DNA of 64,000 nt from a virus. The stretch covers positions 1 through 64,000 of IMG/VR virus record IMGVR_UViG_3300034117_001294, one strand, 5' to 3'. Positions 1,553-52,029 of the stretch are shown in pieces. The notes under the pieces are model-generated. The model made no database searches. It was given only the letters and a program-made list of their open reading frames with translations, and was not told the DNA's origin. Position 1 is the first letter of the stretch. The number at the start of each line of letters is the position of its first letter. The position numbers and the translations under genes are program-made.

Positions 1553-3949
1553 ATGACAACAAGAATCAAACTACGTAGAGATACAGCCGCTAATTGGACT
1601 ACTAACGATCCAGTATTGGCCTTGGGTGAAGCAGGCTATGACACTACCAATAATGAACTGAGAGTAGGTGACGGTACTACGGTATGGAGCGGATTAGAAT
1701 CTATTGGCGGCACTGGTGATAAAATAACAGCAGAGAAAACTTATTCAGACAATTACAATGACGGTAGTGAACACACTTTCGCCTATACCACTGGATCTAT
1801 TGCTGTACAGATGGGGAATGATAACGGACTGTATCTCAATGATCTGTTGTCAAGATGGGTGGAGTATTTTGATGGCAATCTTGCCTTTCCCTATAATTAC
1901 AGCAACATCAACCTAGTGATAAATCCCGGCACTGATGATCTCGCATCAACAGTGACCAATGTAATCTCTAGTGGTAATCCACCATTGTACACCATAACAC
2001 TGGGCACAGCACACCCAGAGCCTATAACAATAGATGACATTGATTTTAATTACACCTACGTTAACACCATTGGGTTGGACATAGTTAACGGTGATGGTGA
2101 AAGTAACAGTTACTTTGGCATGGCTACCGGTGACGATGATATAACTATTCGTTCAGGAAGAGATATTACGTTAGACGCCGCAGACGATGTTTACATATCA
2201 GGAGGCAATGAATTTCAGTTAACACTTGTAAACCAAGATGACATGAGTGCCAGTAGCGGAATTGATATTCGCACAGAGACCACATCAACTGACTACACAT
2301 GGACATTTAGGTTTGATGGCAGTCTAGAACTACCGGAAGGCTTGACTCTGCCAACTAAAAATAACAAGGGCTATGATGTCACTACCAACCTTAACGCACC
2401 AACACTACAGTTAAGCAACGACAGTCAAAACCAAGTTATCGTCACAGGACCAACAGCTACAGAAAACAACACCAATGCTCAACGTATTGTGATCCAAGGC
2501 CAGCGTGGCTACGGCTCAACCAGCACCACAGGTGAAGGCGGCGATGTTTATATCTGGGGAGGAGTTGGCGGTGAAACCAACAGTAACAGTAATGGATGGG
2601 GCCAAGGTGGCGGCAGTGGTGGTGATATTAAACTACGCGGTGGCGAAGGCCTTAACGACACAGGTGGTTATGTTAGGATTGAAGGTGGCAATGTTGCTCA
2701 CTTTAACACTTCTACCACAGGCAATCCTGGATTTGTGGAAATCACCGGCGGTGATGTAGTCATTGAGAATGCCGCAGGCAGTAGTTATGGTGGCGATGTT
2801 AGAATCACAGGCGGTCGTGCTTACACAGCAACCACACAGTCTGGAGTTGTACAGGTAATCACAGGCGGCTACGCCAATGGTGATGTTCTTGGTGCCAATA
2901 CTTGGACGTTTGCTAACGATGGTACTCTAACAGTACCGGGCGATATCCTTGACAGTGAAGGCGTTAGTGTATATATCGACACAGCGGATAGTCAATGGAT
3001 TGTCGACCCAACTAATACGGGCACATACACCGCTGATGGCAGTTTACACAAACCTTTCAAAACTATCGCGTCGGCATTGGCCTATATTGAAGCAAGGATT
3101 GCTGATACTAGTTTAGTAATTGACATAAACGGTTCTATCGTTGATAACCCACAGTTTATTTTCCTAATGAGTTCTATCACAGAGGATGTGGCGTTGACTC
3201 GTGGAAATATTTTTATCCGTAGCGAAACTCCCGATGCTGGCCATGTACCTATTTGGATTGAGGGACATGTTACTATTACTCCGGCAAACACCGGCACAAA
3301 CGCTATAAACGTTAATAGATTTGGCCTATTTAATATTGCCGTACGTACAACCAGTTCGAATCACGGTATCGAGTTAACTGGATCTAATCCAGCAAAACTT
3401 TACCTAGACGATGTATACTGTTATCAAAACGATGCCACCAAGAGTTGTGTTTATGCGGATAACACTGGCACAGGTAGCAGAGTGGAAATGAATGATTGTC
3501 ACATGGCTAGAGCCGGTGGCTCTGTATATCTAATAGATATCCAACGTGGATTTTGTATTATAAACAATCTCGAAACTAACGGTACGGGACAAGTACTTAA
3601 CCAAGCAAACGATTCATTAGGAACTATGCTGAGAAGTTCATTGGATGCCAACACTGGCTCCGTTATTACCCTAAGTGGTTCAGTACAATGGGGTATGGGT
3701 GAAGTTATTCTTAACAACACTGGAGCAGGGGCCGATACTCACGGTGTTACTATGAGTGACTCGGCAACCATGCAGTTTGGTGTGTGTACATTTAACATAC
3801 CAGTTGGAGATGGTTCAAATCGTGCTATCAACGGTACTGGTACAAACACGGTACTGTATGCTGATCCAATATTCCAATATGGTTCAACTAACAAGATATC
3901 AACTGAGATTACATTAGTTCCGTTGACTAAAACGTTTACAGCGGTATAA
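1553..3949 (+). CDS. Long tail fibre protein with beta-helix repeats
   Basis: A 798-residue protein. The N-terminus (TRIKLRRDTAANW..LALGEAGYDTTNNELRVGDGTTVW, read in parts) matches the virion-attachment module found at the start of many fibre proteins (Mtd N-terminal-like). Residues about 310-430 contain repeated GGD-x-x-I-x-GG units, typical of a right-handed beta-helix or glycine-rich solenoid. From about residue 480 a pectin-lyase-like helix begins (TYTADGSLHKPFKTIASALAYI). It probably forms a trimeric fibre that binds cell-surface glycan. It is 13 nt downstream of the Hint protein, presumably in the same late transcript. The specific receptor is not inferable. Confidence 0.8.
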   Translation: MTTRIKLRRDTAANWTTNDPVLALGEAGYDTTNNELRVGDGTTVWSGLESIGGTGDKITAEKTYSDNYNDGSEHTFAYTTGSIAVQMGNDNGLYLNDLLSRWVEYFDGNLAFPYNYSNINLVINPGTDDLASTVTNVISSGNPPLYTITLGTAHPEPITIDDIDFNYTYVNTIGLDIVNGDGESNSYFGMATGDDDITIRSGRDITLDAADDVYISGGNEFQLTLVNQDDMSASSGIDIRTETTSTDYTWTFRFDGSLELPEGLTLPTKNNKGYDVTTNLNAPTLQLSNDSQNQVIVTGPTATENNTNAQRIVIQGQRGYGSTSTTGEGGDVYIWGGVGGETNSNSNGWGQGGGSGGDIKLRGGEGLNDTGGYVRIEGGNVAHFNTSTTGNPGFVEITGGDVVIENAAGSSYGGDVRITGGRAYTATTQSGVVQVITGGYANGDVLGANTWTFANDGTLTVPGDILDSEGVSVYIDTADSQWIVDPTNTGTYTADGSLHKPFKTIASALAYIEARIADTSLVIDINGSIVDNPQFIFLMSSITEDVALTRGNIFIRSETPDAGHVPIWIEGHVTITPANTGTNAINVNRFGLFNIAVRTTSSNHGIELTGSNPAKLYLDDVYCYQNDATKSCVYADNTGTGSRVEMNDCHMARAGGSVYLIDIQRGFCIINNLETNGTGQVLNQANDSLGTMLRSSLDANTGSVITLSGSVQWGMGEVILNNTGAGADTHGVTMSDSATMQFGVCTFNIPVGDGSNRAINGTGTNTVLYADPIFQYGSTNKISTEITLVPLTKTFTAV

Positions 3950-27294: not shown

Positions 27295-27962
27295 AAGTTA
27301 AATTAATTTCGTCAAGCAAGCCCAGTCGCGAAATGTACGACGAAGGTCTGATGGATGCACAAGAGCTGATTGCGTTCTGTGCTCGGGTTAGTAACCCCTC
27401 TAACCAATTCAACATGGATACTGCTGACAAGCTGATCCGTTATTTGATCAAGCATAAACATTGGTCGCCACTTGAAATGGTATCAGCCTGTTTAGAAATC
27501 GAAACTACCCGTGACATTGCTCGACAGATCCTGCGTCACCGTAGTTTCAGCTTCCAGGAGTTTAGTCAACGCTATGCAGATCCAACCAAAGACCTTGACT
27601 TTGTTATCCGTGAAGCACGACTACAGGATACAAAGAATCGCCAGAACAGTGTTACCACTGATGATCATGAATTAATGGCTGAATGGAATCGCAGACAACA
27701 TCAGGTTATCAACCTTGTCAAAGAAAATTATGCATGGGCCATTGAAAACGGCATTGCTAAAGAGCAGGCCCGTGCTATTCTACCAGAAGGCAACACAGTC
27801 AGTCGCTTGTATATGAACGGCACACTACGCTCATGGATTCACTTTATTGATCTACGTAGCGGCAATGGTACCCAGCTAGAGCACATGGAAGTTGCACGTG
27901 AGTGTGCTCGAGTAATTGCTGAAATCTTTCCAATGGCTACTGAGTATGTCCAGCCCCAGTGA
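27291..27962 (+). CDS. thyX: Flavin-dependent thymidylate synthase
   Basis: A 223-residue protein with the ThyX signature RHRSFSFQEFSQRYA (consensus RHRxxSxNExSxR; Asn is replaced by Gln here) and the C-terminal substrate-binding LRSGNGTQLEHMEVARE. It methylates dUMP to dTMP using FAD, NADPH and methylene-tetrahydrofolate, acting in the same pathway as NrdAB and the dCMP deaminase at 30223. Full length for phage ThyX. Confidence 0.95.
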   Translation: MKVKLISSSKPSREMYDEGLMDAQELIAFCARVSNPSNQFNMDTADKLIRYLIKHKHWSPLEMVSACLEIETTRDIARQILRHRSFSFQEFSQRYADPTKDLDFVIREARLQDTKNRQNSVTTDDHELMAEWNRRQHQVINLVKENYAWAIENGIAKEQARAILPEGNTVSRLYMNGTLRSWIHFIDLRSGNGTQLEHMEVARECARVIAEIFPMATEYVQPQ

Positions 27963-28338
27963 TACGCTGAAAAAGTTTGCGGCTGAACACAATGTTCGAG
28001 TCATTGACTCAAATAAACGTGCCTACAAACATACTCGGGCTAATGTAAATCTATTTCATTATGAGACTGACTATAACAAGTTTCTTCAAGAGCATATAAC
28101 TTTTGAAACTGAAACTCTTTACACAGTTGAGATCAGTGAAAGTGAATTAGAACGCATTGCCGAGTTTGAAAGTCAGGTGTTCAACCATATGAAAAGTAAG
28201 GGTCATTATAATATGTTCGAAACCCTTATGGAACAAAAAGAACGTGAGCGAGCACTGCGTGATACATATCCAGCAGTTCGTAAAGCGTACGAACAATATA
28301 GTCTAATGTTAAAATTAGCTCAGTCTGGAGAACTATGA
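27946..28338 (+). CDS. Conserved phage protein, unknown
   Basis: A 130-residue protein; the ATG at 27946 overlaps thyX by 17 nt. Helical and charged (VEISESELERIAEFESQVFN ... RKAYEQYSLMLKLAQ); the C-terminus resembles that of the protein at 45065 (VRKAYDHFQLMCKLVK), suggesting a shared C-terminal helix in otherwise different proteins. No catalytic motif. It overlaps the next gene by 4 nt (ATGA). Confidence 0.6.
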   Translation: MSSPSDTLKKFAAEHNVRVIDSNKRAYKHTRANVNLFHYETDYNKFLQEHITFETETLYTVEISESELERIAEFESQVFNHMKSKGHYNMFETLMEQKERERALRDTYPAVRKAYEQYSLMLKLAQSGEL

Positions 28339-40546: not shown

Positions 40547-41316
40547 ACTGCAATATTGATCGCCTGCGGGCACGTATCTTCCATGGCTTAAAAAGTCTGC
40601 TCAGTGACGGTGACACATTGCCTCCTCGATTCCTTGAAGTAGCAATTTGTGAGAGCTTTGGATTAGAACACGTAGGCGACGGTAACTTTTATGCTGACGG
40701 CGTTAAAGACAAGATGCAGGCTAGTATCAAAACTCGCATGATGAATCCTCACTTGTTAAAGCGTAAACAAGGACGAGACTTTCAAACAGACCCTGCTATG
40801 TTTCTTGGTCCTAAACAAAACAAAAAACATAAAAAGTTTTGGGCAGGATTGGAAATTGTACAGCGTCGACAAGCATTGCCGTTTAAAGATGCTACAGCGG
40901 CAGCAGTTAAAATTGGAACTGCAACTCTCGAAGCTTTTCAAACTAACATTAAAGAAAGTTTTGAAAAGTTTGATACTGATAAGAGTTATGAGATTGTAGG
41001 TGTACACGGGTATTCAATTGAAGGCGATTACATTGTCAGCCTTTACTGGCACGAATATGCTCCTATTGATCCAGCTACTATCAAGTGGACTAAAGAAGGT
41101 TACGGAGTAACTGGCTATGCAAAAGTAGGTGATCAAAGCATGGTGGTCTGTGAGCGTATTAACGGCAATGCCAAACGCGAAGCTACTTGTTATAAAGAAT
41201 ACAAAAATTTAACCAAGCTGCCTAACAGTATTCACATCAAAGTTCCATTGCCAACTCCGTGGTCTTTTAACGAGGCAGAAATTCTTAAAGAATTAAACAG
41301 TGTCAGTAATTGTTAA
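40543..41316 (+). CDS. Conserved phage protein, unknown
   Basis: A 257-residue protein. FHGLKSLLSDGDTLPPRFLE, then FYADGVKDKMQASIKTRM, and IVSLYWHEYAPID are the clearest stretches. A central D...E-x-K-like arrangement is not convincing enough to call a nuclease. It is coupled to the exonuclease gene upstream and overlaps the LRW-type small gene downstream by 17 nt. Possibly DNA-related by context. Confidence 0.5.
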   Translation: MNCNIDRLRARIFHGLKSLLSDGDTLPPRFLEVAICESFGLEHVGDGNFYADGVKDKMQASIKTRMMNPHLLKRKQGRDFQTDPAMFLGPKQNKKHKKFWAGLEIVQRRQALPFKDATAAAVKIGTATLEAFQTNIKESFEKFDTDKSYEIVGVHGYSIEGDYIVSLYWHEYAPIDPATIKWTKEGYGVTGYAKVGDQSMVVCERINGNAKREATCYKEYKNLTKLPNSIHIKVPLPTPWSFNEAEILKELNSVSNC

Positions 41317-41530
41317 AATTCATTGGTCTCGTGAATTTGAAAACGAGAAGATGTGGAACGAAGTATGTATATGGGCAATTGAGTACTTTGGTTTGCCCGG
41401 AGATCGATTTGAAACCCGGGCAAACGTCAATTACATGGAATTCATTTTTAAGAGCCGTAAAGATGCACTCCTTATGTCTCTTAGGTGGAACGCAGAGTTA
41501 CTTGAACCAGCCGACTTTGAGACCGTTTGA
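41300..41530 (+). CDS. LRW-family small protein (isolated member)
   Basis: A 76-residue protein starting at GTG: it has VKIHWSREF, a helix W..VCIWAIEYFGL and the pattern FIFKSRKDALLMSLRW, like the five tandem proteins at 46.3-47.5 kb, but with 14 extra residues after LRW. Its 3' end overlaps the convergent DUF454 gene by 33 nt. Function unknown; shares the family's layout of a helix, an aromatic strand and a closing D-x-x-M/L-F/S-x-LRW. Confidence 0.6.
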   Translation: MSVIVKIHWSREFENEKMWNEVCIWAIEYFGLPGDRFETRANVNYMEFIFKSRKDALLMSLRWNAELLEPADFETV

Positions 41531-44780: not shown

Positions 44781-45087
44781 ACTGGCAAAATATCTAAACA
44801 GTCGCCGACGACATAAGGACGAGTCTGCTATTAAAAAACAGACCAAGATTGCTAAACAGCACAGAGTAAGCGAATACAATCCTGGTGAAGTTAAGCAACC
44901 ACATCGTTTCAATAAACGGCATGCAATGGACTGTGGTAACCCAGAATGCTTTATGTGCGGTAATCCACGCAAAACGCACAAAGACAAATTAACTACACAA
45001 GAAAAGCGTCTATTCCAAGATGTGGAAAAGACTTCCGATCGACACAGTAACGGATTGCCTCCAGATGACAAAGAAGATATACTATGA
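44770..45087 (+). CDS. Basic protein with Cys-x4-Cys-x2-Cys motif
   Basis: A 105-residue protein. The GTG at 44770 is chosen because AAAGGA lies 8 nt upstream and the overlap with the previous gene is then only 11 nt. It is Lys/Arg-rich with CGNPECFMCGNPRKTHKDKL, a compact cysteine motif likely to bind zinc; similar CGNPRK motifs occur in other phage proteins. A nucleic-acid-binding role is probable but unspecified. Confidence 0.6.
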   Translation: MANELAKYLNSRRRHKDESAIKKQTKIAKQHRVSEYNPGEVKQPHRFNKRHAMDCGNPECFMCGNPRKTHKDKLTTQEKRLFQDVEKTSDRHSNGLPPDDKEDIL

Positions 45088-45529
45088 GAAAGTTGGCCGC
45101 CGGTATATTCCAGTAGCCGAATATGATAACATGTTGCTAGACAGTTTCCCGAAAGGTGACCACCTAGTTATGTGTTACCCTGGTGGATCTAGCCGCAGAT
45201 TCAACATCGATCCACACTATGCACCTATGATTGCGGCTGGCCGTGTTGCTGAAGATGCTATCAGTAAAGCAGTGGTCAAAGCCAGCGAGATGCGTCCCCA
45301 CCGTACACCCATTACTGAGAAGCAACGTAAGGCTTGGGAATCTCTGGCCAAAGCATTTGACAATGATCGCTACTACATTGAAATCCCTAGTGCAAGAGAA
45401 ATTGCCGAAGCGGGAGTTAAAGCAATGATTGATGAAGCCGACAAACTAATGGAGCACGAAAGTGTACGCAAAGCCTACGATCATTTCCAACTAATGTGTA
45501 AATTGGTTAAAGAAAACGAACGTGAATGA
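45065..45529 (+). CDS. Conserved T4-like phage protein, unknown
   Basis: A 154-residue protein with the familiar pattern of a conserved T4-like phage protein: YYEKVGRRYIPVAEYDN, LVMCYPGGSSRRFNIDP, PMIAAGRVAEDAISKA, PSAREIAEAGVKAM and VRKAYDHFQLMCKLVK. The ATG at 45065 overlaps the previous gene by 23 nt. Possibly a regulator, as it is widely kept next to early genes; no catalytic motif. Confidence 0.65.
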   Translation: MTKKIYYEKVGRRYIPVAEYDNMLLDSFPKGDHLVMCYPGGSSRRFNIDPHYAPMIAAGRVAEDAISKAVVKASEMRPHRTPITEKQRKAWESLAKAFDNDRYYIEIPSAREIAEAGVKAMIDEADKLMEHESVRKAYDHFQLMCKLVKENERE

Positions 45530-46302
45530 CTCGCTTTTTATTATTGATGCTAGTTTGCGGATCTGTTTGGGCTAAACCGTTACCTCAAAGTGTGTTGCTG
45601 TACAACGATACTACCGGACACCACCTAATTCAATCTAATGCAGACACTGTTCGTCCTATTGCCAGTATTACTAAACTAATGACTGCTATGGTTACGTTAG
45701 ATTATGACAAAGACCTTACCCGCACATTAAAATCTGCAGGCAAAGTCGGAGGAATACTGCCTCGAGGTACGTGGACACGAGGAGAGGTGATGCACGCCAT
45801 GTTGATTCGCAGTGACAACGATGCTGCCGAAACATTAGCAGCAGATTACCCCGGAGGTCGCAGTGCCTTTTTGGCAGCTATGAACGCTAAGGCTATATTA
45901 CTCAATATGCCTAACGCTAATTTTGGAGATCCGAGTGGACTCGATTCTAAGAATGTTACAACATTGCTCGGAGTTAAACGCTTACTGTTGGCAAGTTCAG
46001 AGTATCCTATTATCCGAGAAATTAGTGTAAAGAAACAGGCATTGTTTGATCATCGATTTAAAAAGAAAATACGTAAGATCGAATTACCAAATACCAACAA
46101 AGAATTATTATTTGAGTTTGACAATATTGTTGTGACTAAAACAGGACTAACTAATCCTGCAGGTTGGTGTTTAGGTATGGTTGTAGAACAGGGTGGACAA
46201 AAATATGTCATAGTAATTTTAGGTGCTAGAAATAAATTAGAGCGACTTAAAATTGCCAAAGAAATCATGTACAATAACATAACAGATACGGATTTGCGAT
46301 GA
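45526..46302 (+). CDS. D-alanyl-D-alanine carboxypeptidase/endopeptidase
   Basis: A 258-residue protein with signal peptide (TRFLLLMLVCGSVWA) and the three penicillin-binding motifs: SITK (residues about 43-46), SDN (about 95-97) and KTG (about 205-207). It belongs to the PBP5/PBP7 (peptidase S11) family and would trim or cut peptidoglycan peptides in the periplasm. The C-terminal domain 2 of PBP5 is missing, resembling the shorter PBP7-like endopeptidases. It overlaps the first LRW gene by 4 nt. It may remodel the wall for lysis or growth. Confidence 0.88.
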   Translation: MTRFLLLMLVCGSVWAKPLPQSVLLYNDTTGHHLIQSNADTVRPIASITKLMTAMVTLDYDKDLTRTLKSAGKVGGILPRGTWTRGEVMHAMLIRSDNDAAETLAADYPGGRSAFLAAMNAKAILLNMPNANFGDPSGLDSKNVTTLLGVKRLLLASSEYPIIREISVKKQALFDHRFKKKIRKIELPNTNKELLFEFDNIVVTKTGLTNPAGWCLGMVVEQGGQKYVIVILGARNKLERLKIAKEIMYNNITDTDLR

Positions 46303-46487
46303 TATTAGTTGATCACGAGTATCATGTTGTTGAGTTACACACATTTAAGATACCACCTGCAGAAATGTTTGAGTGGCTACAACTTAAATTCGGTCCGGGT
46401 GACGGTTACCGTTGGATGTACAAGCATCCTAAAATTTATTTTGCAGATCCAAAAGATCACATGATGTTTTTGTTGAGGTGGTCATGA
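46299..46487 (+). CDS. LRW-family small protein 1
   Basis: A 62-residue protein ending KDHMMFLLRWS. It has the family layout: short strand, a helix with F/W-x-W (MFEWLQLKFGPG), a GYRW strand and the closing IYFADPKDHMMFLLRW. It is the first of five tandem paralogues; the start overlaps the peptidase stop (ATGA). Its last codons TTGAGGTGGTCATGA include GAGGTGG, a Shine-Dalgarno match for gene 2. Function unknown. Confidence 0.75.
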   Translation: MILVDHEYHVVELHTFKIPPAEMFEWLQLKFGPGDGYRWMYKHPKIYFADPKDHMMFLLRWS

Positions 46488-46705
46488 ATCGTACTCACTT
46501 GGATTATGAAGTATTTCTAGACTCCGGACTACACAATAAGGCAGGACGATGGTGTGCCCAACAGTTCGGACAGCGTTGGGAAGTAATAGGTTTTCAATCC
46601 GGGCGTTGGTCAATGTTTTGGGGCGGAAGAGATAGCCCGGGCAAGTATAGATTTTGTTTTGCCCATGAGCAAGACAAGCTGATGTTTATGTTGAGGTGGT
46701 CATGA
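46484..46705 (+). CDS. LRW-family small protein 2
   Basis: A 73-residue protein starting at the ATG overlapping the stop of gene 1. GRWCAQQFGQRWEVIGFQSG provides the helix and the RW strand, and FCFAHEQDKLMFMLRWS the closing motif. The last 15 nt are identical to those of gene 1 and again contain GAGGTGG before the next ATGA. Confidence 0.75.
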   Translation: MNRTHLDYEVFLDSGLHNKAGRWCAQQFGQRWEVIGFQSGRWSMFWGGRDSPGKYRFCFAHEQDKLMFMLRWS

Positions 46706-47019
46706 ATATTGAACAAAGTGTAATTAACGAAGCAGCTCGCCAAATGGCTAAAGCTATTGACGATGAGTTACTAATGACCACAATGGGGTGGCACAAACTA
46801 GAACTAAGCGAAGGTACTGTTTACGGTTCTCGATATCTAACTGTACATCCTAACAACGGCTGGCACTGGAATGAAATGATGGATTGGACAGTAAAGACAT
46901 TTGGACCCACAGCACACGACGGAGTCTGGACACCTAACATGCGTTGGTATGCTAACAATGCTAAATTTTGGTTCCGAAATGAAAAGGATCGTACAATGTT
47001 TATTCTGAGGTGGGCATAA
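46702..47019 (+). CDS. LRW-family small protein 3
   Basis: A 105-residue protein, with an N-terminal extension of about 40 residues (AARQMAKAIDDELLMTTMGW). The conserved part is WNEMMDWTVKTFGP, then TPNMRWYANNAKFWFRNEKD and RTMFILRWA. Junction to gene 4: GAGGTGGGC then TAATG overlap. Function unknown. Confidence 0.75.
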   Translation: MNIEQSVINEAARQMAKAIDDELLMTTMGWHKLELSEGTVYGSRYLTVHPNNGWHWNEMMDWTVKTFGPTAHDGVWTPNMRWYANNAKFWFRNEKDRTMFILRWA

Positions 47020-47291
47020 TGGCCAGTATTAATACTATTATTGGCAGTGCTGAAACAGAGCCCGAAATCCAGCCAATGCAAACTGGCAAGGCCAAAGGTT
47101 GGATTGGTGAGTATCATTGGGTTAGTCTTCCTGTTACTGATCAAAACAAATACGAAAACACAACTGAGTTAGCCACTGAATGGTGTCGAGATCAGTTTGG
47201 TAAGAGTGGTGCTCGTTGGTTTGAAAAAGAACGTAAATTCTATTTCAAAAGTGAGAAGGACATGACTATGTTTATTCTGAGGTGGTCGTGA
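47019..47291 (+). CDS. LRW-family small protein 4
   Basis: A 90-residue protein. TELATEWCRDQFGKSGARWF and KFYFKSEKDMTMFILRWS carry the family pattern. A Glu/Gln/Pro-rich N-terminus (GSAETEPEIQPMQTGK) is specific to this copy. It ends in GAGGTGGTC with a GTGA overlap to gene 5. Confidence 0.75.
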   Translation: MASINTIIGSAETEPEIQPMQTGKAKGWIGEYHWVSLPVTDQNKYENTTELATEWCRDQFGKSGARWFEKERKFYFKSEKDMTMFILRWS

Positions 47292-47521
47292 GTGATACAG
47301 CAAGCTGGATTACATTTGGTAAAGAACGGTATTGGCAACATCCAGACATGGAACAATGGTGCCACGAACATGTAGGAACCGGTGGTTGGTCCTATCAGAC
47401 TCCTGAAACTTGGGAAGGCATGAATGGTAAGATTTGGGTCATGCATAGTATGTTTGGTAATACTACATTTGCCTTCAAGGATGCTAAACATTTAACAATG
47501 TTTTTATTAAGGTGGTTATAA
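47288..47521 (+). CDS. LRW-family small protein 5
   Basis: A 77-residue protein starting at GTG (47288) overlapping the previous stop. DMEQWCHEHVGTGGWSYQTP and TFAFKDAKHLTMFLLRWL show the family pattern; the last residue is Leu rather than Ser/Ala. Its end, AAGGTGGTTATAATG, again supplies a ribosome site and TAATG overlap for a 22-residue reading frame. Confidence 0.75.
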   Translation: MSDTASWITFGKERYWQHPDMEQWCHEHVGTGGWSYQTPETWEGMNGKIWVMHSMFGNTTFAFKDAKHLTMFLLRWL

Positions 47522-47589
47522 TGGAGTTGACAAAATTAAAAAAATTTGTTAAAGTATTAGATAAACATACAGAAAGAATTTTATCATGA
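47521..47589 (+). CDS. 22-residue micro-protein (possible)
   Basis: A reading frame from the ATG overlapping gene 5's stop to a TGA overlapping the next ATG; product MELTKLKKFVKVLDKHTERI plus LS. It is basic and helical. Perfect coupling at both ends and the AAGGTGG site support translation, but the length makes it uncertain. It may only bridge translation to the membrane protein. Confidence 0.4.
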   Translation: MELTKLKKFVKVLDKHTERILS

Positions 47590-47804
47590 CTATGGATCAA
47601 GCAGCGACCTGGTTAGCAGGCAGTATTTTAACAATGTTAGGTTTTATTGTAGTAATTGGTGCAGTATTGGTAATCAACAATCTACTGCATAAGTATTGGA
47701 AACCAGTGCAATTCTTTAAATGGGCAGAACATCCTTCTACTCGTTTTATGACGGAAGAAGAAACTACAAAGATTGCACCAGTAATAGACCAACAGAATAA
47801 ATGA
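47586..47804 (+). CDS. Small single-pass membrane protein
   Basis: A 72-residue protein with one transmembrane segment (ATWLAGSILTMLGFIVVIGA, to about residue 30) and a cytoplasmic polar tail. It lies between the LRW array and a lipoprotein gene. Such proteins serve as holin-like, spanin-like or regulatory components; the size fits a small holin accessory, but there is no direct evidence. Confidence 0.6.
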   Translation: MTMDQAATWLAGSILTMLGFIVVIGAVLVINNLLHKYWKPVQFFKWAEHPSTRFMTEEETTKIAPVIDQQNK

Positions 47805-47810
47805 TAAATA
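47803..47810 (+). promoter_or_regulatory. Late promoter octamer
   Basis: GATAAATA overlaps the upstream stop codon region and ends 4 nt before the ATG at 47815. Leaderless start predicted. Confidence 0.45.
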
Positions 47811-47814
47811 CTTG

Positions 47815-48063
47815 ATGCAGATTTCCGAATTGCTTTTTGAACTAGACTTTCAGGGTAGCCCCTGCACTAAAGATTGTAGTGGGCACAGTGCTGGATATGC
47901 ATGGTCCATGAAACACGCTAACAAAAATTGCGATTCAAAAAACGCCAGCTTTAACAATGGCTGCAACATTGCAAAAAAGCAGATTGCCAGCAAGAATATT
48001 AAAAAGCCAGTGGTGTCACAAACTACAAAACCTAGTGATCAGCCTGCAGAGGAGCCAGTATGA
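47815..48063 (+). CDS. Conserved phage protein with CTKDCSGHxAGYxW motif
   Basis: An 82-residue protein starting at the ATG at 47815 (a TTG one codon earlier is also open). ISELLFELDFQGSPCTKDCS and GHSAGYAWSMKHANKNCDSK form a conserved cysteine/histidine motif I know from phage hypothetical proteins; a metal site is likely. The N-terminus resembles CTS-like starts in other genes here. The C-terminus is low-complexity. It overlaps the lipoprotein gene by 4 nt (ATGA). Confidence 0.65.
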   Translation: MQISELLFELDFQGSPCTKDCSGHSAGYAWSMKHANKNCDSKNASFNNGCNIAKKQIASKNIKKPVVSQTTKPSDQPAEEPV

Positions 48064-48275
48064 AATTTGCAGTAATTCTTGCATTGATGCTAACAGGATG
48101 TGCTTCAAATCTAGATTTAGAAAAAAGCATCAGCAGAGATCGAACAATGGGCGATATGGCAAAAACTGCATTGATCAACGAAATGCTTAATAGTCCGGAT
48201 CCAGCAGTAAGACTAGAAGGATCAAGAATAGCCAAAGAGTTCATTGTTCCAAAAAAACGTCTATTTGATTTCTAA
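48060..48275 (+). CDS. Small lipoprotein
   Basis: A 71-residue protein with a lipoprotein signal (MKFAVILALMLTGCASNLDL, lipobox LTGC, Cys at residue 14). The mature part is a short charged helix (MGDMAKTALINEMLNS) and a C-terminal KKRLFDF. Candidates are an outer spanin or immunity lipoprotein. No inner-spanin partner with overlapping frame was found. Confidence 0.75.
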   Translation: MKFAVILALMLTGCASNLDLEKSISRDRTMGDMAKTALINEMLNSPDPAVRLEGSRIAKEFIVPKKRLFDF

Positions 48276-48292
48276 ATTGGTAAAATAATCAC

Positions 48293-48321
48293 TTTACAAC
48301 AGGAAAGAAAACCTGTATAAT
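48293..48321 (+). promoter_or_regulatory. Sigma70 promoter of NAD gene region with spacer hairpin
   Basis: TTTACA (48293-48298), a 17-nt spacer and TATAAT (48316-48321). ACAGG/CCTGT (48299-48303 and 48312-48316) forms a short inverted repeat across the spacer. The ATG at 48378 lies 56 nt downstream, with AAAGGAT as ribosome site. Confidence 0.75.
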
Positions 48322-48377
48322 AAATACATACAGCAAAGAGATAGACTCGTTGCGTACATTATTCAAAGGATTTTTGA

Positions 48378-49400
48378 ATGTCAAAAAAATATGATACCCT
48401 TGTCCTCATCGGACGTTTTCAACCGCTTCACTCAGCTCACTTAGAGATTATCAAGCGAGCCACAGCACTAACTGATCAACTTGTGATCATCTGCGGTAGT
48501 GCTAAACAACCCCGAACTTATAAAAACCCATTTACATTCGATGAACGTGCTCGAATGATCAAGTCAGCAACTGCTGGACTTGCTATGCAGATCTATGTTG
48601 AGCCAAATATTGACACTATCTATAACGATCAGGCATGGGCTGTTCGTGTCCAAGGTATTGTTTCTAAATACCGTGTACTAGGTGGTGCCGGAGTGGGCAT
48701 TATCGGTCATAAAAAAGATGACAGCTCATTCTACTTGGATATGTTCCCACAGTGGGGCTATGAAGATGTTGAATTAGTAGAATTCCTCAGTGCTGTAAAC
48801 ATTCGCGATCTCTACTTCAAGCGTGATGTCAATATGAAGTTCATTAAAGGTGTAGTGCCAGAGTCTACTTTAGACTTTTTGGAGCAGTTCCGCACCACAG
48901 ATCAATACGAACAGATCATCCGCGAACGTGAGTTCATCATAGAACACAATAAACAATATGCTGGATTGAAGTATCCTCCGATCTTCTCAACTGCTGATGC
49001 TGTGGTTATCTGCTCAGGACATGTATTAATGATTCGTCGTCGTGCTGAACCCGGTAAAGGATTGTGGGCATTGCCAGGCGGCTATGTTAACGCCAATACG
49101 GATAAAAGCGTAGAGGATGCAGCCATTCGTGAACTGCGTGAAGAAACACTAATTAAAGTTCCTGCTCCGGTGTTGCGTGGTAGTATTAAACGTAGTAAGG
49201 TCTTTGATGCAGTTGACCGTAGTCCGCGAGGTCGTATTATCACTCACGCATTCCACATTGAACTGCCTGACGGCGAGCTGCCAAAGGTAAAAGGCGGCGA
49301 TGATGCTGAAAAAGCACGTTGGGTTCCTATTGCCGAAGTTCGCAGTGAAGAATGTTTCGAAGACCACTACGAAATCATACAACACTTCTTGGGAGCATAA
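48378..49400 (+). CDS. nadM: Bifunctional NMN adenylyltransferase/Nudix hydrolase
   Basis: A 340-residue two-domain protein. Residues 1-180 are a nucleotidyltransferase (LIGRFQPLHSAHLEIIKRA, with the HxxH start, and a C-terminal YFKRDVN region). Residues 200-340 are a Nudix domain (GGYVNANTDKSVEDAAIREL, then REETLIKVP). This arrangement is the NadM-Nudix family that makes NAD+ from NMN and ATP and may hydrolyse ADP-ribose. With NadV (50590) it forms a two-step nicotinamide-to-NAD+ pathway. Confidence 0.93.
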   Translation: MSKKYDTLVLIGRFQPLHSAHLEIIKRATALTDQLVIICGSAKQPRTYKNPFTFDERARMIKSATAGLAMQIYVEPNIDTIYNDQAWAVRVQGIVSKYRVLGGAGVGIIGHKKDDSSFYLDMFPQWGYEDVELVEFLSAVNIRDLYFKRDVNMKFIKGVVPESTLDFLEQFRTTDQYEQIIREREFIIEHNKQYAGLKYPPIFSTADAVVICSGHVLMIRRRAEPGKGLWALPGGYVNANTDKSVEDAAIRELREETLIKVPAPVLRGSIKRSKVFDAVDRSPRGRIITHAFHIELPDGELPKVKGGDDAEKARWVPIAEVRSEECFEDHYEIIQHFLGA

Positions 49401-49401
49401 T

Positions 49402-49578
49402 ATGAACGAACGAATTAAAGAACTTGCCGAACAGTGCCACCATCGGTATAGTGAACATAACATTGATTTGGAAAAGTTCGCCGAGTTGATTGTTCGGGAA
49501 TGTGCTAATGTTGCCGCTGATCATGATGCCTTGGACATTTACGAAGAGATTAGAGAACATTTTGGAGTTGAAGAATGA
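49402..49578 (+). CDS. MNERI-family small protein, copy 1
   Basis: A 58-residue helical protein: MNERIKELAEQCHHRYSEHN, then EKFAELIVRECANV and HFGVEE at the end. It is paralogous to the protein at 49808, with an identical scaffold. It starts 1 nt after nadM. Short MNERI...KFAELIVREC proteins are common in environmental phages with no known role. Confidence 0.7.
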   Translation: MNERIKELAEQCHHRYSEHNIDLEKFAELIVRECANVAADHDALDIYEEIREHFGVEE

Positions 49579-49811
49579 ATGGTACACCGGCAGACAAAAG
49601 CCCGGGCATAACGGGCTTTATTGAAATCTTTGAGGGCAGGCTTAACAAAATGAAGCTACACCTTAAAGAAGAATTGAGCAAGGCCAAACACGATAGAGAC
49701 CGTAAGTGGATTAAACATCAGCTGGCCGATGCTCGTAAACTCAACAAGACACTGAAAGAAATGCGTAATGCTTCAGCAAAGAAGTGTCCGCATTGTGGAG
49801 AGAAACTATGA
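49575..49811 (+). CDS. Small helical protein with C-terminal CPHCGEKL
   Basis: A 78-residue protein located between the two MNERI paralogues with ATGA overlaps at both ends. A long basic helix (LNKMKLHLKEELSKAKHDRD) ends in CPHCGEKL, half of a zinc ribbon, suggesting dimeric zinc coordination. Function unknown. Confidence 0.6.
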   Translation: MNGTPADKSPGITGFIEIFEGRLNKMKLHLKEELSKAKHDRDRKWIKHQLADARKLNKTLKEMRNASAKKCPHCGEKL

Positions 49812-50041
49812 ACGAACGAATTAGAGAACTTGCTGAACAGGCTGGAGTGGGCTTTATGTTTGATCCTGATGCAGTTGTATTAGCTTTTAAGATGGAAAAG
49901 TTCGCTGAACTGATTGTGAGAGAATGTATTAAAAAATGTAAGGACCATCCATCCATAATTTTTAAGAATGAATGGGATGCTGATGTTGTGGCTCCGGACA
50001 TTGTCAGCAGATTAGAATCACATTTCGGAGTTGAAGAATGA
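49808..50041 (+). CDS. MNERI-family small protein, copy 2
   Basis: A 77-residue protein: MNERIRELAEQAGVGFMFDP, EKFAELIVRECIKK, with a longer middle than copy 1, ending SHFGVEE. The ATG at 49808 overlaps the previous stop. The copies share the N-terminal helix and the C-terminal FGVEE. It overlaps the macro-domain gene by 4 nt. Confidence 0.7.
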   Translation: MNERIRELAEQAGVGFMFDPDAVVLAFKMEKFAELIVRECIKKCKDHPSIIFKNEWDADVVAPDIVSRLESHFGVEE

Positions 50042-50589: not shown

Positions 50590-52029
50590 ATGAAACTCGC
50601 AAAAAATCTTATCCTGAACACAGACTCGTACAAAGTCTCGATGTTCAAACAATACCCAGCAGGAACCACAGGTGTATATTCATATATTGAATCACGCGGT
50701 GGGCGTTACGATAGAACTGTATTCTTCGGACTACAGGCTTTTATCAAGGAATACCTACTTGCACCCATCACACAAGCAGATATTGACATTGCTGAAGAAA
50801 TTCTTACCCTACACGGTGAACCCTTTAACAGAGAAGGATGGCAGTATATTCTTGACCAGCACCAAGGATTCTTGCCCGTTGTTATCCGAGCAGTCCCTGA
50901 AGGAACTATTGTCCCTGTCAAAAACGTACTCGCTACCATTGAGAATACCGATCCAAAATGTTATTGGTTGACCACTTGGTTGGAAACTGCTCTGCTTCGT
51001 GCAGTGTGGTACGGTACTACTGTGGCAACACAAAGCTGGAAAATTAAACAAGTCATTCTTGACTACTTGGAGCGTACAGGTGACCCTACTACTATTGATT
51101 TTAAACTGCACGACTTTGGTGCTCGCGGTGTATCTAGCCTCGAAAGTGCTGGGATCGGTTCTGCGGCTCACCTCGTTAACTTTATGGGAACGGATACCAT
51201 TACTGGTATTCTTTACGCTCGTGAGTATTATGGAGCTGGCATTGCTGGGTTTTCTATTCCTGCTGCCGAACATAGCACAATCACTTCTTGGGGTCGCGAC
51301 GGTGAAGTAGATGCTTACAGAAATATGCTTACTCAGTTCGCTCGTCCCGGTACTATCCTCGCTGTTGTTAGTGATAGTTACGATATCTACAACGCAGCCT
51401 CTAAGCTCTGGGGCGAAGAACTTCGCCAACAAGTTATCGATAGTGGTGCTACTGTTGTCATTCGCCCTGATAGCGGCGATCCTGTTGAAGTCAACCGTAA
51501 GCTAGTTGAGATCCTTGGATCCAAGTTCGGATACACTACTAACAGCAAAGGCTTCAAAGTCCTGAACAACGTCAGACTGATCCAAGGTGACGGTATTAAC
51601 GAACTTACTGTTCGCAGTATCCTCGGTGCGTTCATGGCCATGGGCTGGAGTGCCGATAACATTGCTTTTGGTATGGGCGGTGCTCTGTTACAGATTGTAG
51701 ATCGTGATACTCAACAATTTGCAATGAAGTGCTCTGCAATGAGCCGTACTGTTAGAGTTGAAGATGGTGATCTCGGATCTGGTTTTAAAACTGAATGGTT
51801 TGATGTGATCAAAGACCCAGTCACTGATCCTGGCAAGAAGTCTAAGGCAGGCCGTGTTACACTGTGGACTAACAGTGGTGGCGAGTTTGCATCAGGGGTA
51901 ACTGAACCTACTGGTTGGACTGATCGGGGAATCGGCGGGTGGACCAACGCACTGGTTCCAGTTTACTGGAACGGCAACCTGCACAAAGATTACACCTTTG
52001 AGGAAGTTCGAGCTAACGCTCGCAAATAA
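50590..52029 (+). CDS. nadV: Nicotinamide phosphoribosyltransferase
   Basis: A 479-residue protein of the NAMPT family: LNTDSYKVSMFKQYPAG (N-terminal), SYIESRGG, and HDFGARGVSSLESAGIGSAA (active-site region), ending in RPDSGDP and GMGGALLQ phosphate-binding segments. It makes NMN from nicotinamide and PRPP. With NadM it allows NAD+ rebuilding from the nicotinamide released by NAD-cleaving enzymes. Found in many large phages. Ended by the terminator/promoter element at 52035. Confidence 0.95.
   Translation: MKLAKNLILNTDSYKVSMFKQYPAGTTGVYSYIESRGGRYDRTVFFGLQAFIKEYLLAPITQADIDIAEEILTLHGEPFNREGWQYILDQHQGFLPVVIRAVPEGTIVPVKNVLATIENTDPKCYWLTTWLETALLRAVWYGTTVATQSWKIKQVILDYLERTGDPTTIDFKLHDFGARGVSSLESAGIGSAAHLVNFMGTDTITGILYAREYYGAGIAGFSIPAAEHSTITSWGRDGEVDAYRNMLTQFARPGTILAVVSDSYDIYNAASKLWGEELRQQVIDSGATVVIRPDSGDPVEVNRKLVEILGSKFGYTTNSKGFKVLNNVRLIQGDGINELTVRSILGAFMAMGWSADNIAFGMGGALLQIVDRDTQQFAMKCSAMSRTVRVEDGDLGSGFKTEWFDVIKDPVTDPGKKSKAGRVTLWTNSGGEFASGVTEPTGWTDRGIGGWTNALVPVYWNGNLHKDYTFEEVRANARK

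Follow-up and report, generated by a model that had tools for sequence, protein, structure and literature searches.

How a row of small phage genes comes to share one short protein ending, and what this ending does for the gene that follows, are the questions raised by the locus described here. In the window, which is the whole stretch of DNA analysed (64,000 nucleotides, bases 1-64000 of a 228,849-base virus record), five overlapping open reading frames (ORFs) all end in M-F-x-L-R-W plus one residue (Table 1), which bears out the tandem array of five LRW proteins claimed in a preliminary description of this DNA. The same description proposed that the stop codon of each gene overlaps the next start and that a sequence resembling a Shine-Dalgarno (SD) site precedes it, and both points hold. 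The junctions after members A to E read ATGA, ATGA, TAATG, GTGA, and TAATG, all junctions in the window are -4 or -1 stop/start overlaps, and GAGGTG, a perfect 6-base complement of the anti-SD, is present at all four internal junctions, its spacing being 3 nt at the ATGA and GTGA junctions and 6 nt at the TAATG junction.

Table 1. Members of the LRW family in the window and the junctions between them (positions are those of the window)
Feature	Position	Strand	Length	Description
Member A	46299..46487	+	62 aa	ends MFLLRWS
Junction A/B	46473..46487	+		TTGAGGTGGTCATGA; LRWS codons form the GAGGTG SD, 3 nt before the ATG of B; stop/start overlap
Member B	46484..46705	+	73 aa	ends MFMLRWS
Junction B/C	46691..46705	+		TTGAGGTGGTCATGA; GAGGTG 3 nt before the start of C
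Member C	46702..47019	+	105 aa	ends MFILRWA
Junction C/D	47005..47021	+		CTGAGGTGGGCATAATG; SD 6 nt before the ATG of D
Member D	47019..47291	+	90 aa	ends MFILRWS
Junction D/E	47277..47291	+		CTGAGGTGGTCGTGA; GTG start; GAGGTG 3 nt before the start of E
Member E	47288..47521	+	77 aa	GTG start; ends MFLLRWL; last copy
Array exit	47507..47589	+		TTAAGGTGGTTATAATG; leads into a 22-codon ORF, 47521-47589
Isolated member	41300..41530	+	76 aa	LRW coded CTTAGGTGG; 13 residues after LRW

The ATG of member A overlaps the stop codon of the upstream peptidase S11 (D-Ala-D-Ala carboxypeptidase-like) gene as ATGA, and the GTG start of member E is supported by an ATG-started orthologue, MSDTASWITFGKER, in the locus L012. 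At the end of member E (TTAAGGTGG), TAAGG is located 8 nt before the ATG of the 22-codon ORF, which is not a sixth copy of the family. This short ORF has stop/start overlaps with both member E and the gene at 47586, and is possibly a coupling minigene. The additional member that had been noted outside the array exists, although the 14 residues assigned to it after LRW were a miscount; the gene next to it is on the opposite strand. A profile search of the record identified a seventh member outside the window (G000:98391-98579).

A search for arrays in other phages had been proposed together with the preliminary description, and when IMG/VR contigs were scanned, the six window proteins yielded 153 relatives and a second scan with other family members yielded 163. 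A C-terminal profile built from 216 sequences matched 1,259 ORFs in 162 loci, all of which were on the plus strand, with zero matches on the minus strand of these loci. The motif was readable in 1,211 members, which fell into 567 clusters at 60% identity; the densest locus carried 36 members in 20 kb, and one 154-kb record had 42. The proteins, of about 60-130 aa, follow the consensus W-C-x3-F-G ... F-x-F-x2-E-x-D-x-[TA]-[ML]-F-x-L-[RK]-W-[SAL], which may be summarized as F-x-F-x4-D-x-x-[ML]-F-x-L-[RK]-W-[SAL], and show strong divergence upstream of the motif, the final residues being the best conserved. None of 70 diverse members matched Pfam-A or PHROGs v4 at E<=0.01, Pfam and PHROG scans with the window array proteins gave no match, and the family profile had no match in T4, phiKZ, CBB, CcrColossus, or P-SSM2. 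This is a very large unannotated family in big, mostly uncultured phages, with dozens of copies per genome.

Regarding the codons of the motif, the Arg of the terminal LRW was coded AGG in 71% of 262 cases, as compared with 7% of 1,788 internal Arg residues of the same genes and 5.4% of 184 Arg residues before an internal Trp; the loci were picked by the LRW peptide pattern, a selection that biases residue frequencies but, provided that every codon is covered by the pattern, leaves the choice of Arg codon unaffected. This excess of AGG, the plus-strand matches with none on the minus strand, and the five reference phages without a match argue that the family is not a product of chance. Among independent clusters with a start codon within 8 nt, the terminal xRW used AGG in 277 of 346 (80%), whereas with no start following, it did so in 8 of 25 (32%; odds ratio 8.5, p=9e-7), and within 16 orthologue groups found in both contexts, the odds ratio for AGG was 6.1 (p=0.004). 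Codon selection in the motif is, thus, linked to the following start, and the protein motif and the translation signal of the next gene are the same bases, as originally proposed. The tie between AGG and a following start stands as a strong preference, but not as an invariable rule, since AGA or CGN takes the place of AGG in about 20% of coupled Arg copies and some copies have Lys instead. The accompanying expectation that the Arg codon would be free in isolated members was not borne out by the member at 41300, which has AGG with no start after it.

The codons on both sides of Arg also vary with the position of the next gene. When the ATG is 2 nt after Trp (ATGA), about 90% of xRW clusters have G as the last base of the codon preceding Arg, which gives GAGG, whereas when it is 5 nt after Trp (TAATG), about half do, a shift that is as expected if the SD moves to keep its spacing. 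The final codon is NNA (TCA, GCA, or TTA) where this is needed for the A of ATGA, and AGT, GCT, or others where no gene overlaps. Since the Arg-codon and last-codon patterns follow the downstream start, the peptide is maintained on account of the protein, and its codons on account of the gene that follows. An SD core was found at 70% of ATGA junctions after family members versus 34% after other genes, and -4 or -1 overlaps accounted for 51% of all family junctions.

The preliminary description implied that other synonymous LRW codons would be absent from homologous arrays. Such codons were found, yet copies that carry them may make the next ATG within the motif itself: an Arg or Lys codon that ends in A (CGA, AGA, or AAA) forms an ATG together with the Trp codon TGG (CGATGG). 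Among the 48 copies without another start nearby, which served as candidates for this form, the ATG opened an ORF of at least 40 aa in 33, as compared with 5 of 21 in a same-frame control; 29 of these 33 ORFs had homologues in another locus, and 19 were family members.

The AlphaFold model of member D has the order b-b-a-b-b-a (pLDDT 82.5), its C-terminal helix (residues 79-89) terminating in LRW, and that of a divergent subfamily ending in LKYS/LRYS has the order b-a-b-b-b-b-a (pLDDT 92). In both models, the C-terminal helix closes with the motif, and LRW as a last strand was, therefore, rejected; the conserved Trp/Phe pattern extends back to the first helix. In a comparison with the PDB, the best matches were YciH (E=0.15) and CutA1 (E=0.14), with none at <=1e-3, and there was no significant structural match to an eIF1/YciH (SUI1) or CutA/PII-like fold. 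A viral structure library returned 4 matches at <=1e-3, all of which were uncharacterised proteins of uncultured phages. The view that the motif is a translation signal holds for the shared bases; however, the SD alone is not the maker of the motif, which is kept, with its codons freed, where no gene follows, and which forms a helix end in the AlphaFold models.

Related phages hold the same orthologues in permuted order. The order is F11-F0-F6 in L012 and F11-F32-F0-x-F6-y in L019, with identical flanking genes, and the additional genes of L019 are inserted at start/stop junctions. Orthologue pairs at 60-90% identity had the same right neighbour in 22% of cases, whereas other genes kept theirs more often, at 35% for small and 49% for larger genes. 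This comparison is a rough one, since it is based on automatic gene calls and the other genes also lie in these regions. In 194 pairs with differing neighbours, which were chosen for low downstream identity, DNA identity was about 0.4-1.0 as far as the start codon and fell to the background, about 0.27, immediately beyond it; relocated copies thus remain homologous precisely as far as the next start. The array had been assumed to grow by duplication. The closest relative was nevertheless in another record for 813 of 866 distinct members and in the same locus for 22, with nine members having a same-locus relative at >=50% identity; tandem duplication was rejected as the source of the arrays, which rather look assembled from an old shared pool.

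Among cultured phages, the profile gave 42 matches in Sinorhizobium phage Phosso (469 kb, PV764938), which are clustered and often overlapping, and 6 in Agrobacterium phage Atu_ph07. A protein search of cultured phages with the window proteins gave a single weak match, in Phosso (E=1), which the profile confirmed as real, and searches with Phosso members and another array member revealed no further cultured relative. In 40 members from the distant Phosso lineage, the Arg position was R in 12, T in 10, A in 8, and S in 4, with AGG in 3 of 40, and the SD core was present in 4 of 16 overlaps. Coupling would, thus, not appear to require the lock, namely, the fixing of an SD in the conserved protein end, and since Phosso has about 40 members without it, the lock probably arose later than the protein family. 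The simplest reading of these sequences is that the family and the overlaps came first, the lock being characteristic of the lineages around this window; alternatively, Phosso may once have had the lock and then lost it. The approximately 40 copies in this cultured phage make the function of the proteins testable. In Phosso (L171, 1-16000), a tRNA-Arg(cct) gene, the product of which reads AGG, is located directly upstream of the family member at 2896-3189; no tRNA gene was found in the 64-kb window.

The arrays may be ordinary overlapping genes, in which the SD must sit in the upstream 3' end and a fold-conserved LRW had codons that happened to suit. Embedded SDs are common in prokaryotic overlapping gene pairs (PMC6728339; reviewed in PMC12548453), the motif is structural according to the AlphaFold models and is kept without a following gene, and AGG is likewise enriched at codon -3 of other overlapping-start genes in these loci (79% versus 20%, in a set that may include undetected relatives), which indicates that the physics is ordinary. 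This explanation leaves the family-wide lock with its start-in-motif alternative unexplained, as well as the permuted arrays of up to 36 copies, and SD core use after family members is twice that after other overlapping pairs. We consider it rather unlikely, while acknowledging that it overlaps with what we regard as the best explanation: the physics is ordinary, and the system-wide use is not.

The breaks of relocated copies exactly at the start codon and the permuted orders would also fit a shared 3' end that is primarily a DNA recombination site, either through short homology or as a site-specific target, with the SD being secondary; however, a break at the start codon would be expected of any whole-gene move, the conserved DNA is only about 13 nt long, and the loss of AGG when no start follows would not be predicted. 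Synonymous identity did not rise toward the junction, adjacent third-codon positions being no more alike than elsewhere, and a junction recombination tract was looked for and none was seen; with synonymous identity flat up to the junction, the motif appears unsupported as a recombination site, and we regard this role as highly improbable. The extreme divergence before the motif and the conservation of the last residues may instead indicate a C-terminal sorting or recognition tag, in which LRW, joined to unrelated N-terminal domains, would be recognized by one shared partner (virion, compartment, or protease). Against such a tag, which we consider improbable, the conserved pattern of Trp and Phe continues upstream as far as the first helix, the models of two divergent subfamilies each show an alpha+beta domain in which the motif is the final helix, and Phosso mostly has Thr, Ala, or Ser in place of the Arg.

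We consider it very probable that the LRW proteins constitute an undescribed small-protein superfamily that is encoded in long, translationally coupled cassette arrays and the ends of which are selected for the initiation of the next gene. A cassette extends from its own ATG through the overlap with the next ATG, and selection for next-gene initiation would act on the last four codons in large-phage lineages, including that of this window. The usual form is (T/C)TG-AGG-TGG-NNA-TGA, which combines the SD (GAGGTG) with the stop/start overlap, and the alternative form is xxA-TGG, where the next ATG arises from the motif itself. The array would be transcribed as one polycistronic mRNA and translated as a relay, the ribosome that ends one copy being positioned at the next start and held there by GAGGTG, or starting within the motif, so that members would be connected by SD-assisted termination-reinitiation coupling. 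Since each cassette carries the initiation signal of its successor, cassettes may be gained, lost, and reordered without a separate regulatory sequence, and this portability may be the reason why the arrays persist. The many diverse, exchangeable small genes suggest that the proteins are accessory host-interaction or counter-defence factors. A broader reading, which we put forward tentatively, is that the arrays draw on a pool shared by large phages as an integron-like assortment of small effectors, in which the connector is translational and not recombinational; if this is true, cassettes may be inserted, removed, and permuted anywhere in the row with expression maintained.

Integron gene cassette arrays likewise line up small, diverse genes that share a junction and can be reordered; the shared junction of LRW arrays (about 13 nt) differs in that it belongs to the protein. 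In known termination-reinitiation coupling (PMC6728339; PMC12548453), as in the LRW arrays, genes overlap by -4 (ATGA) or -1 (TAATG) and the SD lies within the 3' end of the upstream gene; such coupling works best at spacings of -4 to +3 (PMC12548453). Termination-reinitiation has been described for single gene pairs, whereas the unusual part of the present system is that one family fixes the SD by the conserved last residues of its proteins, in two alternative forms and across hundreds of neighbours; unlike in the described pairs, the start-in-motif form is a feature of the LRW family. The PeSLs, mobile regulatory cassettes of the T4 type (Arbiol 2010; Comeau 2014; both cited in PMC4503421), are similar in having a repeated regulatory sequence at gene boundaries and modular shuffling of small genes, and such shuffling of flanking genes is also found in LRW arrays. 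PeSLs are described as promoter-terminator motifs between genes, whereas the LRW element is coding, translational, and inside genes, and at 45000-48400, no PeSL-type combination of promoter and terminator stem-loop was detected in excess of shuffles (promoter-like sites, 13 versus 9.2, sd 2.8; terminator-like sites, 3 versus 2.4). According to the review PMC7824862, Bacillus phage G carries about 35 zinc-ribbon copies as a lineage-specific expansion in a jumbo phage, which is similar to the LRW family in the dozens of small-protein copies in one very large phage; the LRW family differs in its alpha+beta fold, coupled arrays, and lock, and no mention of it was found in the passages of that review that the search retrieved.

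In agreement with the preliminary description, which knew of no such arrangement, no description of the family or the arrangement was found in a literature search from the coverage of which most subscription journals and preprints were absent. The LRW family, its lock, and the permuted arrays appear to be new, whereas embedded SDs and coupling are already known in general; the combination of coupled overlapping genes with jumbo-phage gene expansion was not met in the literature searched. The hundreds of independent junctions represent a naturally replicated test of how selection for initiation shapes protein sequence, and suggest a way for phages to express a reorderable set of small genes with no control sequences between them.

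Another family of small genes, unrelated to the first (MNERI...FAELIVREC...HFGVEE), is present at 49396-49578 and 49808-50041 in the window and at 5318-6038 in L025. Its C-terminus FGVEE is coded GGAGTTGAAGAATGA, and these codons, thus, also encode an SD (GGAG) for the overlapping next gene; the Gly was GGA in 29 of 29 copies, 27 of which had a start within 20 nt, versus 22% for internal Gly. The window copies had no PHROG match. A conserved protein ending in SGEL is encoded at 27916-28338 in the window and at 4240-4626 in L006 and relatives, and SGEL is coded AGTGGAGAATTATGA in the relatives, with GGAG shortly before an overlapping start. Neighbouring genes related to NAD salvage, at 48378-49400 and 50590-52029 in the window, encode a cytidylyltransferase-Nudix fusion and a nicotinamide phosphoribosyltransferase. 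The window also contains a set of host-like phage genes (38295-39533, 41914-43107, 61595-62821, 62822-63373, 9542-10285, and 60775-61254) for a ClpX-like ATPase, a class I/II aminotransferase-fold enzyme that looks like 5-aminolevulinate synthase, a ketoacyl synthase, a heme oxygenase, a fatty acid desaturase, and Hsp20.
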